Assembly (NCBI GenBank): GCA_024280995.1
Contig: JAMXLM010000036.1
Span: forward strand, 33,850 to 97,849
Direction: 5' to 3'
From: Candidatus Dormiibacterota bacterium
GTDB taxonomy: Bacteria > Chloroflexota > Dormibacteria > Dormibacterales > Dormibacteraceae
Length of the DNA stretch: 64,000 nt
Shown: piece after piece, positions 16,193 to 42,372 of the stretch
Layout: every line of letters begins with the position of its first letter
Numbering within the stretch: position 1 is the stretch's first letter
Position numbers and translations under genes: made by a program
Notes under the pieces: model-generated
Database searches by the model: none
Seen by the model: the letters and a program-made list of their open reading frames with translations, nothing else
Told to the model about the DNA's origin: nothing

Positions 16193-17836
16193 ATGAAGGT
16201 CAGGGCACGCGAAGCCGAGGAGCTGTGGAAGGAGGAGTTCGAGAAGAGCCCCTCGCGCGAGGACGGCCTCGAGACCTCGACGATCTCCGGCATCCCGCTG
16301 AAGCCGCTCTACACGACCGGCGACCGGCCGACGCGCGAACAGGAGTTCCCCGGTCAGTACCCGTACACCCGCGGGATCCACGCCAGTGGCTATCGCGGCC
16401 GCCTCTGGACCATGCGCCAGTTCTCGGGTTACGCCACCGCGGCGGAGACCAACCGGCGCTACAAGTACCTGCTGGCGAACGGTCAGACGGGACTGTCCGT
16501 CGCCTTCGACATGCCCACCCTCATGGGCCAGGACTCCGACGCCCCCACCAGCCGCGGCGAGGTTGGCCACTGCGGGGTCGCCATCGATTCCCTCGCCGAC
16601 ATGGAGACGCTCTTCGAGGGCATCCCGCTCGGCGAGATCACCACCTCGATGACCATCAACTCACCGGCGGCGATCCTGCTGTGCATGTACATCGCCGTCG
16701 CGGAGAAGCAGGGCGTCCCGGCGTCGCGGCTTGGCGGCACGCTGCAGAACGACATCCTCAAGGAGTTCATCGCGCAGAAGGAGTTCATCTTTCCGCCGGC
16801 GCCGTCGATGCGACTCGTCGTGGATTCGATCGAGTACTGCGCGCGCGAAGTGCCACGGTGGAACACGATCTCAATCTCCGGCTATCACATCCGTGAGGCC
16901 GGCTCGACCGCGGCGCAGGAGCTCGCCTTCACCCTTGCGGACGGCATGGCCTACGTCGACGCCTGCCTCGAGCGCGGCATGCACATCGACGACTTCGCGT
17001 CGCGACTGTCGTTCTTCTTCGACGCTCACATCGACTTCTTCGAGGAGATCGCGAAGTTCCGCGCCGCTCGTCGGATATGGGCGCGCTGGATGCGCGAGCG
17101 CTACGGAGCGCAGCAGGAGCGTTCGTGGAAGCTGCGCTTCCACACCCAGACGGCGGGCGTCTCGCTCACGGCGCAGCAGCCCGAGCTCAACATCGCCCGC
17201 ACCGCGGTCGAGGCCCTGGCCGCCGTGCTGGGCGGCACGCAATCGCTTCACACCAACGCGATGGACGAGGTGCTGGCGCTGCCGACCGACAGGGCCGCCC
17301 GGATCGCGCTGCGGACGCAGCAGCTCCTGGCCTACGAGACCGGCGTAGCGAACACGATCGACCCGCTGGGCGGCAGCTACTTCATGGAATCGCTGACCGA
17401 CGAGATGGAGCGACAGGCGGAGGCTTATTTCAAACGAATCGACGAAATGGGCGGCGTGATCCCGGCGATCGAGGCCGGCTTCTTCCAGAAGGAGATCGCC
17501 GACTCGGCGTTCCGGTATCAGAAGGAGCTGGAGCAGAGGCGGCGGGTCATGGTCGGGGTCAACGACTTCACGGTCGATGAGGAGGAGCCGATCGAGATTC
17601 TGCGCATCGACCCGAAGCTCGAGGCCGAGCAGGCTGAGCGCGTGCGCGAGATTCGGCGGAAGCGTGACCAGGCGCGGTGCAAGAACGCGTTGAACCGGTT
17701 GCGCAAGGCGGCGGCGGGCACCGACAACCTGATGCCGTACATACTCGACGCGGTGCGCGAGTATGCGACCGAAGGCGAGATCATGCAGGCGATGATCGAG
17801 GTGTTCGGCACCTACACGGAGACCGCTGTCGTATAG
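16193..17836 (+). CDS. Methylmalonyl-CoA mutase large (catalytic) subunit, lacking B12 domain
   Basis: [94 protein letters not shown]. Confidence 0.95.
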
Positions 17837-18031
17837 GTGTCGCAGCCCCGAGAGTCCTCGCATCTTCGCGTCCTAAGCGGCCGGGCGCCTGCGGCGCTGA
17901 AGCCGGCGTCTAGGGGCCCGGCGCTGACTCGTCACGCACCAACGGGTGCGCTCCTCGTCGCGCCACCCTATCCTTGGCTCCGGCCGCCTATGCCGCGAAA
18001 TATGCGTCGGACTCCGGGTCAGCGACACCCT
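17837..18031 (+). repeat. Copy A of a dispersed palindromic intergenic element
   Basis: Terminal inverted arms GGTGTCGC...GCGACACC, internal blocks shared with copies B and C (GCATCTTCGCG, CGGCCGGGCGC, GCGCTGAAGCCGGCGTC, CTCGTCGCGCCACCC, CCTTGGCTCCGGCCG). Confidence 0.8.
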
Positions 18032-18033
18032 TA

Positions 18034-18453
18034 ATGGCGACCGCGACAAAGCCCGTCCGAATCGTCGTCGCAAAAGTCGGTCTCGACGGCCACGACCGCG
18101 GGGTCAAGGTGGTCGCGCGAGCCCTGCGAGACGCCGGTTACGAGGTCATCTACACCGGTCTGCGCCAGACGCCCGAGATGGTCGTCGACGCGGCGCTCCA
18201 GGAGGACGCTCAGGTGATCGGGCTTTCGATCCACTCGGGCGCGCACATGACGCTCTTCCCGGCGGTGGTCGACGAGCTGAAGCGACGCAAGGCGACCGAC
18301 ATCGTCGTGTTCGGCGGCGGGATCATCCCGGACGACGACATCACGGCGCTGAAAAAGCGCGGCGTGGCGGAGATCTTCACGCCGGGCACGCCTCTCCAGA
18401 GCATCGTCGACTGGCTGCGAAATCGTTTTCCGGAGCAGGCCAAGAAGCCTTAA
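18034..18453 (+). CDS. Cobalamin-binding small subunit of methylmalonyl-CoA mutase
   Basis: [47 protein letters not shown] (DxHxxG B12 motif), [10 protein letters not shown]. Confidence 0.95.
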
Positions 18454-22969: not shown

Positions 22970-23614
22970 ATGGCGACCTGCTGGTACTGCAGCTCGGACG
23001 TCCCGGAGACGTCCCAGTACTGCCCGAGCTGCGGACACAGCCAGCTCGACCGAACCTCGAGCCCGCTTTTCGGCGTCGTCGACTCGACGACGGGCATCTG
23101 GAACTCGAAGTTCTTGTACGCCCTGGTCGGCCAGGAGGCGAACCGCTCCGTGCGCTACCACCGCCCTCTCTCGGTGCTGGTGGTCGAGCTCGACCACGCC
23201 GAGCACATCCACAACGAGCTCGAGCCGGTGCAGGTCGAGGCGTTGCTCCGGGAGATGGCGGAGCGGCTGGGTCAGGCCGTCCGCGACACCGACACGGTCG
23301 GGTTTCTCGACGTGGACGGGCCGCCGCACTTCGGGATCGTACTGCCCGAGACCGATGAGCAAGGCGCGGCGCTGGCGGCAGACAAGATCCGGCGCAGCAT
23401 CGCCTCTCACGACTTCGGCAGCGGCGCCTGGAGGCGGATCACCGTGAGCTGCGGGGCCGCGACGATCGACGCTCACTACCGACCCGACGACGAGGCGGGC
23501 GTCATGAACCGGCGCGAGTACACAGGCGACCTTCTGCGCGAGGCTTACCAGGCGCTCGACTTCGGCCGCTCGGCCGGGACCAACCGGACGACAGTCGGCG
23601 CTTACAGACGCTAG
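22970..23614 (+). CDS. Zinc-ribbon plus degenerate GGDEF-like domain protein
   Basis: CWYCSSDVPETSQYCPSCGHSQ (two CxxC), then GGDEF-fold-like sequence with DVDGPPHFGIVLPET at the signature position. Confidence 0.65.
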   Translation: MATCWYCSSDVPETSQYCPSCGHSQLDRTSSPLFGVVDSTTGIWNSKFLYALVGQEANRSVRYHRPLSVLVVELDHAEHIHNELEPVQVEALLREMAERLGQAVRDTDTVGFLDVDGPPHFGIVLPETDEQGAALAADKIRRSIASHDFGSGAWRRITVSCGAATIDAHYRPDDEAGVMNRREYTGDLLREAYQALDFGRSAGTNRTTVGAYRR

Positions 23615-23806
23615 GGTCGCGGGCCTCGGAGATCCGCCGCAGATTCGCGAGCGCAGACGGCCGGAGCCAAGGAAGGGGTGGCGCGACGAGGAACGCATCG
23701 TTGATGCGTGACGCTGACGCGACAGGTCCCCTGACGCCGGCTTCAGCGCGACAGCGCCCGGCCGTATGAGCCGCGAAGATGCAAGGATGCTCCGGGACCG
23801 CGGCCC
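23612..23806 (-). repeat. Copy B of the dispersed palindromic element, inverted relative to A and C
   Basis: Reverse complement aligns to A along its length: GCATCTTCGCG..CGGCCGGGCGC..GCGCTGAAGCCGGCGTC..CGTCACGCATCAACGATGCG..CTCGTCGCGCCACCCC.TCCTTGGCTCCGGCCG. Confidence 0.8.
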
Positions 23807-24440
23807 TCACAGCAGGATCTTTCTAGTCCGGCATGCGGAGGTCGAGAACCCTCATCGGGTCCTTTACGGCCACCTGTCCGGCTTCCGGCTGAGCGAGCTC
23901 GGGCGAGCACAGTCGGCGGCTGTGGGGCGGCGCCTGCAGGCTGAGGGTATCGGCCTGATCGTCCATAGCCCGCTCGAGCGCGCGAAGGAGACGGCCGAGA
24001 TAATCGCGGCCGAGCTGACGCCCGAACCGGCGCTCGAGGTCGATCCCAGGCTGGTCGAGGCGGAGTTCTCGCGCTACCTGCAGGGCGTGCCCTACTGGCA
24101 GATCCCGGTGAGGCGTCCGCTGTGGGTCGTGCACAAGGCGCGGCGGGGCATGCTGCCCGGCGACGAGACGATCGAGGTCATGGGCAAGCGGGTGCTCGAG
24201 GTCGTGCGTCGGGTCGCGATCGAGCACCCTGGTGACGCGGCCGCGCTCGTCAGCCACGCCGACCCGCTGAACGCGGCCTGGATTCTGCTCGACGGCCGGC
24301 CCCAGCACGAGCGCGAGATGCACCGCAAGGCGATCGGCAAGGCGGGGATGCTGCAGATCGATATGGACGGCGATACTCCGCGGTCATGGGAGTACATCCC
24401 TCCGCCGAAGATCGACAAGCCGGCGAGCGCGGCCGCCTAG
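23787..24440 (+). CDS. Histidine phosphatase (phosphoglycerate mutase-like)
   Basis: RIFLVRHAEVENPHRVLYGHLSGFRLSELG (RHG motif), ALVSHADPL; ATG alternatives 23766 and 23787 both lie in repeat B. Confidence 0.88.
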   Translation: MLRDRGPHSRIFLVRHAEVENPHRVLYGHLSGFRLSELGRAQSAAVGRRLQAEGIGLIVHSPLERAKETAEIIAAELTPEPALEVDPRLVEAEFSRYLQGVPYWQIPVRRPLWVVHKARRGMLPGDETIEVMGKRVLEVVRRVAIEHPGDAAALVSHADPLNAAWILLDGRPQHEREMHRKAIGKAGMLQIDMDGDTPRSWEYIPPPKIDKPASAAA

Positions 24441-25679: not shown

Positions 25680-26195
25680 GTGACACGCCGGTCGGTCGCG
25701 ATCGGGGCCGTAAGCATCGTCCTGGCCTCGGTCCTGATGCTCTCCCTCGCCTGGGGCTTGGGCCACGCCGCCCTCTCCAACCCGGCGGTCCTGGGCAAGC
25801 CGGCGCCGCGACTCGCGATCCAGCCCCAGTCGGGAGGCGAGGTCCGCGTCTGGGAGCTGCAGGGCAAGCCGGTGGTCTTGAACTTCTGGGCATCCTGGTG
25901 CGGGCCGTGCGTCGCAGAGGGCGGCGTGCTCGCCGACGGCGCGAGCAAGCATCCGGACGTCGCATTCGTCGGCGCCGACAACCAGGACACGACGGCAGGG
26001 TTCAGCGCCTACGAGCAAAACCATCCGCACGCCTATCCGGCGGGACCGATCGTCGCCGGGAGCTACCAGTCGTACGGAGTGGCGGGCCTGCCGGCGACGT
26101 TTTTCATCGACTCGCAGGGAGACGTCGTGGCGTCGTTCACCGGCCCGCTCGACGCGAGCACTCTCGACCACTACCTCGGACTGGTCGGCGCATGA
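25680..26195 (+). CDS. ccmG: TlpA/ResA/CcmG-like thiol-disulfide oxidoreductase
   Basis: VVLNFWASWCGPCVAEGGVL; first gene of the Ccm cluster. Confidence 0.85.
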   Translation: MTRRSVAIGAVSIVLASVLMLSLAWGLGHAALSNPAVLGKPAPRLAIQPQSGGEVRVWELQGKPVVLNFWASWCGPCVAEGGVLADGASKHPDVAFVGADNQDTTAGFSAYEQNHPHAYPAGPIVAGSYQSYGVAGLPATFFIDSQGDVVASFTGPLDASTLDHYLGLVGA

Positions 26196-26588: not shown

Positions 26589-28526
26589 GTGATCCTGGGA
26601 TACCTCGGCGCCGGAGCGCTTCTGGCCGGCCTCGTGCTCGGCGGGTTCTCGGCGCTGCTGTCCTTCTGGGCAGGTGCGCGCGAAAGCGCGGTCTTCATCC
26701 AGGTCGGCCGGCGCGCCTTCTACGCCGCCACGGCGATGACGCTGCTGGCCGCGGTGCTGCTCGAGACGGGCCTGCTGACTCACGACTTCTCGCTGGCCTA
26801 CGTCGCCGAGCACACGGACCTGAGCACGCCCATCGCGCTCGTCGCGGCCGGCTTCTACGGCGGGCAGGAGGGATCGCTCCTCTACTGGACGCTGATCCTG
26901 GGTCTGCTCGGAAGCGCCTCGCTCGTGGCGAGCGCGGTGTTGGGCGGCAGGGTGGCCGCGTACGCGACCGGGATACTGGCCACCCTCCTGACCTTCTTCC
27001 TCTTCGTGCTCGCGGTCGTCGCCAGCCCGTTCGAGCTGCTGTCGGTGACGCCGCCCGACGGCCTTGGTCTCAACCCGGTGCTCCGCGACGGCGGGATGCT
27101 GATCCACCCGCCCGTCGTGCTCGCCGGCTTTGCCGCCTTCGCGATCCCGTTCGCGTTTGCGTGCGCCGCATTGCTCGCGGGGCGAGCCGACAGCGCATGG
27201 ATCGCCCACACGCGGCGTTTTGCGCTGCTCGCGTGGGGACTCCAGACATCGGGCCTGCTGCTCGGCATGTGGTGGGCGTACCACGTGCTCGGATGGGGCG
27301 GCTACTGGGGCTGGGACCCCGTCGAGAACGTCGCCTTGATGCCGTGGCTGGCGACCACCGCGTATCTGCATTCCGCGCAGGTCCAGGAGAAGCGCGGCCG
27401 CCTGCGAGCCTGGAACTTCGGCCTCGTGATCCTCGCCTTCCTGCTGGTCGTGTTCGGCACGTTCATCGTCCGGAGCGGCGTCGTTCCGTCCGTTCACACG
27501 TTTGCGATCAGCGCCATCGGCCCGTGGTTCCTCGCGTTCCTCGGCGTGTGCATCGCGTTCTCCGCCGTCCTGCTGGGGACCAGGGCGAGCTCGCTCGGGA
27601 CCGCCTCCGGCCGGCCCGCCGAGGCTGTTTCGCGTGAAGGCGCCTTCGTGCTCCAGAACGTGCTCCTGATCGGGGTGATAGCCGTCGTGTTCTGGGGCAC
27701 CGTGCTGCCGCTGGTCTCGGGGATGTTCGGTCTCGAGCGCGTCGTCAGCGCGCCGTACTACGAGCGGGCGGCGGCGCCGCTGCTCGCCGCCGTCCTTGCC
27801 TTGATGGCGATCGGTCCTTTGCTGCCGTGGCGGCATGCGGGACGGCCCACGCTCCGTGCCCTGCGCTGGCCGGGCGCGGCTCTTGCGCTGACTCTCGTGA
27901 TGATGCTCGGGGCGGGGGTCAGGTCGGTAGCGGCCCTCATCGCGCTGCCGCTGGCCGCGGCGGCGGCTGCCACGGTGTTCACCGAGTACGGGCGCGCGCT
28001 GATGCGCAAGCCGGAGGCAATCCTCCGCGGCCGCCGGCGTTATGGCGCCTATCTCGCGCACCTGGGCCTGGTCGTGGTCGCGGTCGGGCTCGCCGCGTCG
28101 CACGTCGCTCAGCAGGAGAAGGACGTGACCCTCACCCCGGGCCAGCAGGTGAGCGTCGCCGGCTACACGCTCACCTACACCGGCTCGGAGCAGCGCCAGG
28201 ACGGCGACCACACCGACTTCATCGCGGGCATGAGGTTCGGCGATCAGACCCTGGAACCGTCGCGTGCGACGTATGCGGGTCTCGGCGGTCAGGCCCTTAC
28301 CCACGTCGCCATCTCGACGACACCGGTGGCCGACGTCTACGTCGTGCTGGCGGACACGGGCTCCGACGGGTCGGCGTCGTTCCGGGTCTTCGTCAACCCA
28401 TTGGTGACCTGGATCTGGGCGGGCGGCGCGGTGATCATCCTGGGCGTCTTGCTCGGCAACGCCGGCGCGCCCAGCCTGCAGCCGGAGTTGGCAAGACGCC
28501 GCGTCGCGGCTACTCTCAGTCTCTAG
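26589..28526 (+). CDS. ccmF: Cytochrome c maturation heme lyase CcmF
   Basis: GGQEGSLLYWTLIL, WWAYHVLGWGGYWGWDPVENVALMPWLATTAYLHS (WWD motif). Confidence 0.95.
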   Translation: MILGYLGAGALLAGLVLGGFSALLSFWAGARESAVFIQVGRRAFYAATAMTLLAAVLLETGLLTHDFSLAYVAEHTDLSTPIALVAAGFYGGQEGSLLYWTLILGLLGSASLVASAVLGGRVAAYATGILATLLTFFLFVLAVVASPFELLSVTPPDGLGLNPVLRDGGMLIHPPVVLAGFAAFAIPFAFACAALLAGRADSAWIAHTRRFALLAWGLQTSGLLLGMWWAYHVLGWGGYWGWDPVENVALMPWLATTAYLHSAQVQEKRGRLRAWNFGLVILAFLLVVFGTFIVRSGVVPSVHTFAISAIGPWFLAFLGVCIAFSAVLLGTRASSLGTASGRPAEAVSREGAFVLQNVLLIGVIAVVFWGTVLPLVSGMFGLERVVSAPYYERAAAPLLAAVLALMAIGPLLPWRHAGRPTLRALRWPGAALALTLVMMLGAGVRSVAALIALPLAAAAAATVFTEYGRALMRKPEAILRGRRRYGAYLAHLGLVVVAVGLAASHVAQQEKDVTLTPGQQVSVAGYTLTYTGSEQRQDGDHTDFIAGMRFGDQTLEPSRATYAGLGGQALTHVAISTTPVADVYVVLADTGSDGSASFRVFVNPLVTWIWAGGAVIILGVLLGNAGAPSLQPELARRRVAATLSL

Positions 28527-28528
28527 CG

Positions 28529-28618
28529 ATGGCGATCATCGTCGCGACCCTGCTGCTGTTCCTGGTGGGGCCGTTTGTGCTCTGGCCCCTGCTGAAGACC
28601 CCGCCGGAGCAACCGTGA
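28529..28618 (+). CDS. 29-aa single-TM ORF between ccmF and ccmA
   Basis: MAIIVATLLLFLVGPFVLWPLLKTPPEQP; TGA overlaps ccmA GTG (GTGA). Confidence 0.5.
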   Translation: MAIIVATLLLFLVGPFVLWPLLKTPPEQP

Positions 28619-39526: not shown

Positions 39527-40690
39527 GTGCGCTCCATCCCGTCTTTCGCCGTGGTCAAGGCCGCCGGAGGGCGCCCGGACGTCGCGACCAGCTCGTTGTC
39601 GATGCTGAAGCTGGGCGACGTCCCCGAGCCGGTTCTCCCGGCGAGCAACTGGATGCGCGTGATGCCGAGCCTGAGCGGCATATGTGGGTCGGACCTGGCC
39701 GCCATCGGCGGTCACGTCTCCCTCTACCTCGATCCCCTCACGAGTTACCCGTTCGTGCCGGGCCACGAGGTCGTGGGCGTGCTCGACGACGGCTCGCGCG
39801 TCGTCATCGAGCCCGCGCTCGGCTGCATCGTGCGCGGCATCGATCCGCCCTGCCCGCGGTGCGCGGAGGGCCGGCCGGGGCTTTGCTACAACGTCACCGA
39901 CGGGCCGATCGAGGTCGGACTGCAGACCGGTTACTGCGCCGACACGGGGGGCGGCTGGGGCGAGGTGCTGGTCGCGCACCCTTCGCAGATCCATGCCGTG
40001 CCCGAAACGCTGAGCGACGAAGCGGCTGTCCTGATCGAGCCGTTTGCTTGCTGCATCCATGCGGCGCTGCGAGGGGGCGCGACGAAGGACGACATCGTCG
40101 TCGTCTCGGGTGCGGGCACGATCGGCCTGCTGACGATCGCGGCGGTGAAGCTCTTCACTCCGCCGAAGCGATTGATCGCGATCGCCAAGCACCCCACCCA
40201 GCGCGACCTGGCGCGCAAGCTGGGCGCCGACCAGGTGGTTTCGCCGGCGGAGGTGTTTCAGCGCGTGCGGTTCGCCACCGGGGCGCGGCGCCTGGACGGT
40301 ATGAACCGATCCCTGCTCCTCGGCGGCGCCGACGTGACCTTTGAATGTGTCGGCCGCGCGGACAGCCTCAACGACGCGGTGCGGTTCACGCGCGAGGGCG
40401 GAACGGTCGTGGCGGTCGGCATGCCGGGCGAGGAGAAGGTCGACTGGGCGCCGATCTGGCAGCGCGAGCTGAGCGTGATGGGGGCGTATGCGTACGGCGC
40501 CGAGCCGAAGCGCAAGGGCCGCAAGACTTTCGAGCTCGCCCTCGAGGCTGCTCCCGAGATGGACCTCGCGGATCTGACGGGACCGGTCTTCAGCCTCGGC
40601 GAGTATCGCGACGCGATCACGTACGCAATGAGTGTGGGCCGGTTGGGCGCGGTGAAGGTCGCGTTCGACCTGCGAGGATTACGTGGTTAG
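39527..40690 (+). CDS. Zinc-binding dehydrogenase (MDR superfamily); CTG 39518 alternative start
   Basis: GICGSDLAAIGGHVS, FVPGHEVVGVL, CPRCAEGRPGLCYN, VVSGAGTIGLLTIAAVK. Confidence 0.9.
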   Translation: MRSIPSFAVVKAAGGRPDVATSSLSMLKLGDVPEPVLPASNWMRVMPSLSGICGSDLAAIGGHVSLYLDPLTSYPFVPGHEVVGVLDDGSRVVIEPALGCIVRGIDPPCPRCAEGRPGLCYNVTDGPIEVGLQTGYCADTGGGWGEVLVAHPSQIHAVPETLSDEAAVLIEPFACCIHAALRGGATKDDIVVVSGAGTIGLLTIAAVKLFTPPKRLIAIAKHPTQRDLARKLGADQVVSPAEVFQRVRFATGARRLDGMNRSLLLGGADVTFECVGRADSLNDAVRFTREGGTVVAVGMPGEEKVDWAPIWQRELSVMGAYAYGAEPKRKGRKTFELALEAAPEMDLADLTGPVFSLGEYRDAITYAMSVGRLGAVKVAFDLRGLRG

Positions 40691-40794
40691 TGGCGCGCCC
40701 CGGAAGTTCCTTGCATCTGCGCCGGCCTAGGCGGCCGGGCGCCTCCGGCGCTGAAGCCGCACATATGCTCCGGCCCTCCGGAGCCCGCCACTAG
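40688..40794 (+). repeat. Copy C of the palindromic element, internally shortened
   Basis: TAGTGGCG...CGCCACTA arms; core TTGCATCTGCGC.GGCCTAGGCGGCCGGGCGCCTCCGGCGCTGAAGCCG matches A and B. Confidence 0.8.
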
Positions 40795-42372
40795 ATGCCG
40801 AGACCAGGTGCGGTTATCGAGGTCGATCGCAACACCCCGCCGGTGCTCTACCACTTCGGCGAGGGGATCAGGCTCGAGAAGCTTCCGCTCGGCGCGCGAA
40901 TCATCTACCCGCCGGACCCGCTCGAGCCGATCGCCCACCCCGAACGCGCCATCAAACGCGCGCTGGCCAAGCCCCTCGAAGACGACCCGCTCAAGTCGCT
41001 GCTGCGCCGCGGGATGAAGCTGACGATCGCCTTCGACGACCTTTCGCTTCCTCTGCCGCCGATGGCGGCGCCGGACGTCCGCCAGCTGGTGATGGAGGAG
41101 GTCATCGACATGGCGGCAGAGGCCGGCATCGAAGACCTGCACATCATCGCCGCGCTCGGTCTGCACCGGCGCATGACCGAGGACGAGCTGCGCCACATCG
41201 TCGGCGATCGAATCTTCACCACGTTCCATCCCGACCGCCTGTATCAGCACGACGGCGAGGACCCGGAGAACAACGTGTACATCGGGAAGACATCGGCCGG
41301 CGAGGACGTGACCCTCAACCGGCGCGCCGCCGAGTCGGACCTCGTGATCTACGTCAACCTCACCCTGGTGCCGATGGACGGCGGGCACAAGTCGATGTCC
41401 ACCGGGCTCGCCTCGTACCGCGGCATCCGGGCGCACCACAACGTCAAGACGTTGCTGGGCTCGCGCTCCTACATGAACCCGCCAGATTCGGCGCTGCACC
41501 ACTCGTGCATCCGTCAGGGGCAGCTCATCGAGGACACGGTGCGCGTCTTCCACATCGAGACGACGGTCAACAACCACGCCTTTCCGGCCATCGCCAACTT
41601 CATGCAGAAGCGCGAGACGGACTGGACCGCGCAGGACCAGGCGATGTTCCTCGCCACCAAGCAGATGACCGACATCGCGCCCCCCGCCTTCAAGCGCAAT
41701 GTCTTCCACGCCATGCGTGCGCCATACGGGCTGACCGCCGTCCACGCCGGACAGGTCGACGCGGTTCACGACAAGACGCTCGACGCGGTCAACCGCCAGA
41801 TCGCGGTGCGCGTCGAGGGCCAGACGGACATCGTGACCATCGGCGTCCCGTACCTCGGGCCCTACAACGTCAACGCCCCGATGAACCCGGTGCTCGTCCT
41901 CTGCATGGGGGCCGGCTACCTTTTCAACTTCTACCGCAACAAGCCGGTGCTGAGAAAGGGTGGCGTCTTGATCCTCACGCATCCGACCCGCTACGAGTTC
42001 GACGCGGTGCAGCACCCGAGCTACATCGACTTCTACGACGAGGTCCTCTCCGACACCAAGGACCCGGCCGAGATCGAGAGCAAGTACGAGCTGCGCTTTG
42101 CCGAAGACCCGTGGTTCAGGCAGCTTTACCGGAAATCACACGCGTACCACGGCGCTCACCCGTTCTACGCGCTTTACTGGGCCGCCCACGCGATGGAGCA
42201 TGCCGGCGACATCATCATCGTCGGTGGTGACCGAGAGGTCGTCCATCACCTGGGTCTGAAATGCGCGACCACCCTCGAGGACGCGTTCGAGATGGCTGAG
42301 CAGACAGTCGGGCGCTACCCGAGCGTTACTCACTTGAGAACGCCGCCCATCATGCTCTGCGAGGTCGAGTAG
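40795..42372 (+). CDS. Lactate racemase (LarA/DUF2088)-domain protein
   Basis: MKLTIAFDDLSLPLPPMAAPDVRQLVMEEVIDMAAEAGIEDLHIIAALGLHRRMTEDELRHIVG. Confidence 0.85.
   Translation: MPRPGAVIEVDRNTPPVLYHFGEGIRLEKLPLGARIIYPPDPLEPIAHPERAIKRALAKPLEDDPLKSLLRRGMKLTIAFDDLSLPLPPMAAPDVRQLVMEEVIDMAAEAGIEDLHIIAALGLHRRMTEDELRHIVGDRIFTTFHPDRLYQHDGEDPENNVYIGKTSAGEDVTLNRRAAESDLVIYVNLTLVPMDGGHKSMSTGLASYRGIRAHHNVKTLLGSRSYMNPPDSALHHSCIRQGQLIEDTVRVFHIETTVNNHAFPAIANFMQKRETDWTAQDQAMFLATKQMTDIAPPAFKRNVFHAMRAPYGLTAVHAGQVDAVHDKTLDAVNRQIAVRVEGQTDIVTIGVPYLGPYNVNAPMNPVLVLCMGAGYLFNFYRNKPVLRKGGVLILTHPTRYEFDAVQHPSYIDFYDEVLSDTKDPAEIESKYELRFAEDPWFRQLYRKSHAYHGAHPFYALYWAAHAMEHAGDIIIVGGDREVVHHLGLKCATTLEDAFEMAEQTVGRYPSVTHLRTPPIMLCEVE

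Follow-up and report, generated by a model that had tools for sequence, protein, structure and literature searches.

Bacterial MITEs are elements of 100–200 bp, mostly with TA termini, that form stable stem-loops (PMC2229807). Among them, RUP has the best-supported partner, IS630-Spn1, with TA sites (PMC2229807, PMC3049150). The family described here resembles RUP in being short and non-coding, and in occurring as many intergenic copies with IS630-like inverted repeats; RUP inserts at TA. By contrast, RUP is 107 bp long, belongs to Streptococcus and was described with one repeat type, whereas the Dormibacterota family is ~195 bp long and GC-rich, combines a conserved core that covaries with exchangeable modules and several types of repeat, and has no partner transposase found in the source genome, G000. 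The Correia (NEMIS) elements of Neisseria, likened here by description, are foldback MITEs of 100–200 bp with TA ends and a mostly intergenic location, and are associated with RNase III and promoter effects (PMC2229807, PMC2649163, PMC10969869). ERIC/IRU and YPAL (RU-1, RU-2) are intercistronic palindromic mobile repeats of 127–168 bp from enterobacteria (PMC2229807, PMC2759123). The Dormibacterota family differs from these in phylum and sequence, and by its long arms, which are similar to terminal inverted repeats, and TA/YTAR boundaries like IS630-type ends. REP/REPIN sequences with RAYT are likewise palindromic, dispersed and non-autonomous (PMC3116915), whereas nearly all Dormibacterota carriers lack the Y1 transposase. 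A narrow literature search found no earlier description of dispersed mobile repeats in Ca. Dormibacterota.

Three copies (A, B and C) are found in the window, the whole stretch of 64,000 nucleotides analyzed here. They are probably members of a large, RUP-like family of IS630-type MITEs in Ca. Dormibacterota; the elements are non-coding and non-autonomous, and their transposase would act in trans.

Three copies and a dispersed family

The copies and their parts are organized as follows.

17834–18032, + strand: copy A, full-length element with apical hairpin type 1 (covariance model R1, 201.7 bits, E=6e-46)
17835–17855, + strand: left outer arm of copy A, AGGTGTCGCAGCCCCGAGAGT, starting within the stop codon of the upstream gene (17834–17836)
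17856–18010, + strand: core of copy A, a long imperfect hairpin with the side hairpin GGGCGCC TGC GGCGC and the apical hairpin CGCACC AACG GGTGCG
18011–18031, + strand: right outer arm of copy A, ACTCCGGGTCAGCGACACCCT; the next gene starts with its ATG at 18034
23612–23807, - strand: copy B, full-length element (R1, 158.6 bits, E=8e-36); the relative L084 has an empty site here
40687–40795, + strand: copy C, internally deleted element (R1, 61 bits, E=7e-13)

The R1 covariance model was built from 55 copies and run on the window, where it finds exactly these three; the next-best match has E=0.09. In agreement with the earlier note, copy A can be aligned from end to end with the reverse complement of 23612–23806 (78.8% identity over 184 positions, E=3e-34). 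The partial match to copy C is borne out as such (84.5% over 71 positions, E=2e-14); the right half of the core is missing in copy C, which is flanked by TTAG (40687–40690) and CTAG (40791–40794).

The expectation of many copies genome-wide was correct. G000 is a MAG of 3.02 Mb in 46 contigs, 94% complete, and contains 40 BLAST matches to copy A; outside the window it has at least 37 further copies. A second, related subfamily with a core of ~140 bp and arms of its own (GGAGACCATC/GATGGTCTCC) has many more copies in G000 and other genomes, an example being the rpsS/rplV element on contig C45 (L040:1459-1654), with others elsewhere in G000. Because this subfamily adds many copies, the true copy number in G000 exceeds 40.

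BLAST detects the family in 30 of 61 relatives, and the covariance model finds it in 46 of 110 genomes from the class, across three families; up to 22 copies per genome were scored, so that counts per genome are lower bounds. The compared genomes are, or may be, MAGs. All 54 core-pattern matches in named genomes fall in MAGs labelled Chloroflexi or Ca. Dormibacterota, labels taken here as one group. G027, a relative without the family, is the only one with many Y1 transposases (11 matches). In total, 131 distinct copies were collected, with cores of 148–216 bp and no transposase gene inside. A search of Rfam returned nothing at the gathering score across the window, and nothing credible for copy A up to E 10. 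Viral contigs scanned for the exact core pattern gave 0 matches, which rules out phage cargo as far as the exact pattern goes. Short arm-like palindromes without a core, which may be solo-arm remnants, are seen at G018:C75:18912-18967 (L349), in L155 near rplT and in L080 near 4.5 kb.

Occupied and empty sites at gene junctions

The family is mobile, as comparison of orthologous junctions reveals (genes are named from the flanking reading frames). The rpsS/rplV element is present in G000 only, and ~29 relatives with readable junctions are empty; the two genes are 249 bases apart in G000 vs 31–56 in those relatives. The rpmI/rplT site is filled in G024 and empty in ~20 relatives, and the dppC/D-like (L002) and atpD/atpC (L033) junctions are empty in at least eight. 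Conversely, two sites are empty in G000.

26186–26187, no strand: empty site in G000; the relative (L041/L084) has a full element exactly there
28466–28538, no strand: empty site in G000, counterpart of the element in L104

Two further observations concern ribosomal-protein genes of G000. On contig C2, elements flank rplT on both sides (L035:945-1083 and 1467-1662), and most relatives have neither. The rpsS product has a C-terminal extension, GPAKAGPAPAA, that is encoded by a small palindrome beside the inserted element (L040, ~1640–1700) and that the relatives lack.

Element ends are usually no more than 3 bases from a stop codon or a few from a start codon. Gene orientation was called by a simple codon score. 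Among the 80 copies with clear neighbours, both neighbours are on the element strand for 43 and on the opposite strand for 15; the neighbours diverge for 19 and converge for 3. Copies are located inside the essential operons rpsS-rplV, rpmI-rplT and atpD-atpC. A role as transcription terminator was rejected, since copies sit within such essential co-directional operons.

Element ends and IS630-family transposons

A TA dinucleotide is present in the 7-base boundary window at 53% of left and 41% of right ends of the 131 copies, vs 5–6% elsewhere, and YTAR at 38% and 34%, respectively, vs 0.23%. Both ends show TA/YTAR in 25% of copies, and ~30% have TA at neither end. In a single copy a TA duplication is inseparable from the palindromic arms, and it therefore rests on these statistics. 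The recent copies of G046 end in TAGTGTCCCGG...CCGGGACACTA and those of G034/G025 in YT/AGTGGACTGTAACGG...CCGTTACAGTCCACT/AG, and both fit the arrangement YT/AG...CT/AG. Copies in G018 have the ends TAGCAGGCTGCTGAAAAAG...CCTGCTA.

Transposases of the IS630 family (DDE_3) are found in 12 of the 61 genomes. Three transposons have inverted ends that start with TAG, with CT and AG as the flanking bases; DDE_3 is confirmed in L353 and L357.

L353: transposon of 1118 bp, TAGTTGCCTGTACC..., DDE_3 4.5e-26
L357: transposon of 1156 bp, CTAG TGGTCCG..., DDE_3 6e-22
L356: transposon with ends TAGTGGAACGTCTC..., within the set of 1118–1156 bp

The arm of element L315 matches the L353 repeat at 13/14 positions. 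The G034 arms match one end of the L355 transposon at 12/14, an example that is less secure because the two ends of L355 agree weakly with each other (14/24). Scored as the best of eight transposon ends, for elements and controls alike, 30% of element ends reach at least 10/14, vs 3% of control TAs. The G018 subfamily (GCAGGCTGCTGAAAAA) reaches only 7/14 and may for this reason use another transposase. The ends (YTAR/TA, TAGTG...) thus place the element among IS630-type MITEs, which qualifies the earlier proposal of a new dispersed palindromic family; this proposal holds for the many copies, the covarying stems, the absence of an Rfam match and the fact that no named MITE was identified.

The search for DDE_3 found none in G000 and none in most carriers. 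That the mobiliser was not found alongside the copies is the weakest link of the MITE reading. Binning of MAGs often loses transposons, and because these MAGs are incomplete the missing DDE_3 is weak evidence. It weakens the case for a known partner and leaves the IS630-like character of the ends untouched. A transposon-length pair with the arms of the recent subfamilies was sought in G018, G034 and G025, and none was found; an autonomous parent with the G018/G034 arms was consequently rejected, as the arm pairs are merely 56–246 bp apart. In L353 (G020:C34), a complete element (~2498–2754) abuts the transposon (1382–2499), and CTAG is common to the junction. The idea that the core is part of an IS630 transposon was discarded, since the L353 element adjoins the transposon and does not lie inside it.

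In the MITE reading, a full copy of ~195 bp would consist of two ~20 bp arms acting as terminal inverted repeats and a foldback core of ~155 bp. A DDE_3 transposase supplied in trans would recognise the arms and insert the element at the TA of a CTAG-like site, with duplication of the TA. TA and CTAG are depleted in the GC-rich genome (33 CTAG are observed in the window vs 194 expected). Those that remain would be found chiefly at stop codons and gene junctions, and this would account for the position of copies between stop and start codons. The arms would covary because both ends must suit one transposase and travel together.

Fold, arms and competing explanations

The + strand of copies A and B is predicted to fold into one long imperfect hairpin (-110 and -107 kcal/mol, respectively). 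The RNAalifold consensus of 55 copies has 51 pairs, and 94.5% of the 2800 pair cells are paired. Changes on both sides are found in 32 of the 51 pairs vs 16.3 in shuffles, and the covariation foreseen by the earlier note is strong (0.243 vs 0.079 in shuffled and ~0.05 in slid alignments). The compensatory change it described in the apical hairpin (CGCACC..GGTGCG in copy A, CGCATC..GATGCG in copy B) is real and recurrent, the pair being U-A in 38, G-C in 8 and C-G in 7 of the 55 copies.

The core occurs with different internal modules. Its apical hairpin may be short or long, its side hairpin short or extended, and there is an alternative form of the distal stem. These modules vary at one and the same site. 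In the orthologous pair L044/L203 the arms are identical and the flanks near-identical, and the apical hairpin is swapped; in L017/L298 the arms are 95% identical and the side-hairpin module differs. The flanks of these two pairs are 88–93% identical. At one orthologous intergenic site with homologous flanks, several species carry elements with differing arms and internal types (L230, L300, L057 and L053), which suggests repeated insertion or conversion of the whole element.

The conservation of the core exceeds the needs of a passive MITE, and this is a point against the MITE reading. Our best guess is that the core is kept as a folded DNA structure that aids movement or tolerance in operons. 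A more radical version, possible but rather unlikely, takes the foldback core as an independent mobile module joined to the repeats of several transposases (TAGTGTCC, TAGTGGACTGTAAC, TAGTTGCCTGTGCC and GCAGGCTGCTGAAAAA types), kept by selection on folded DNA or RNA and with hairpins swapped by conversion.

Base-pair covariation across the whole core is also what one would look for in a functional structured RNA carried in mRNAs, an intercistronic regulator or processing site that spread by transposition and was kept as useful. The location in the rpsS-rplV, rpmI-rplT and atpD-atpC operons speaks for it as well, as does the orientation of tandem genes, which in a larger copy set run with the element strand in 56 cases and against it in 21 (p=8e-5). 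Selection on a + strand RNA is, however, not supported, because G-T cells should then exceed A-C cells, and the + strand shows 32 G-T vs 53 A-C. The A-C excess is slight (p=0.03) and corresponds to wobble on the - strand, too weak to build on; the counts are compatible with a constraint at the DNA level, or with symmetry from a transposase binding both ends. Moreover, the occupied sites differ between lineages and many orthologous sites are empty, Rfam has no match, and arm changes between orthologues, few and not decisive, are mainly one-sided and pair-breaking. We regard the structured RNA as improbable. Of the structure under selection suggested in the earlier note, the conserved and covarying pairing stands, and the RNA version is not supported by the G-T and A-C counts.

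The two outer arms of a copy complement each other far more than expected by chance, as had been claimed, with one mismatch in the arms of copy B as written. Among 93 copies, the arm score averages 12.4 within a copy vs 6.5 for arms paired across copies, and reaches at least 10 in 87% vs 7%; these controls preserve composition, not relatedness. Where close orthologues differ in their arms (small numbers), the changes are mostly one-sided and break pairs, which fits arms that matter for movement and not in place; short divergence predicts the same.

Paralogues with cores 95–97% identical have arms just 43–81% identical. Such a pattern could arise if arms were not inherited and instead were rebuilt from target DNA at insertion (snap-back copying) or by template switching at quasi-palindromes. 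The arms of L041, L104 and L106 match adjacent host sequence, and symmetric double changes in L340 and L321/L338 point the same way. The L002 arm resembles a host gene start in relatives, a likeness that may be chance because copy A has the same arm. Against this explanation, host-like arms resembling adjacent DNA, as a direct repeat, are found in only ~4 of 40 tandem copies, and recent arm changes are mostly one-sided. Recent copies also inherit their arms: identity is 100% in L283/L288, 95% in L260/L262 and in L055/L281, and 20/21 for the left arm of L001/L002. Snap-back rebuilding was dropped as a rule on account of this inheritance and the ~4/40 host-like arms, and we find the explanation as a whole quite improbable. 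Conversion of cores between copies would account for like cores with unlike arms. In the MITE reading, ectopic gene conversion between copies would spread core modules, and would thus produce both similar cores with different arms and same arms with swapped modules.

A foldback, short, high-copy and intergenic element could also be spread in the manner of REP/REPIN, by a Y1 (HUH) RAYT acting on folded single-stranded DNA, or as RNA copied by a reverse transcriptase, but this is very improbable and largely refuted: PF01797 (Y1) is absent in 59 of 61 genomes, all well-populated carriers included, PF00078 (reverse transcriptase) is absent in G000 and most carriers, and the TA boundaries suit DDE transposition better.

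Ca. Dormibacterota are little-known soil bacteria, met here as metagenome-assembled genomes only. Three features of their element family are seemingly unusual for MITEs: a conserved core that covaries, several terminal-repeat types per core, and the exchange of modules in place. Strong covariation in a dispersed repeat, as in this case, need not imply a functional RNA. The insertions within ribosomal-protein and ATP synthase operons, a few bases from start codons, provide a natural test of how far an operon tolerates a long hairpin at its junctions.
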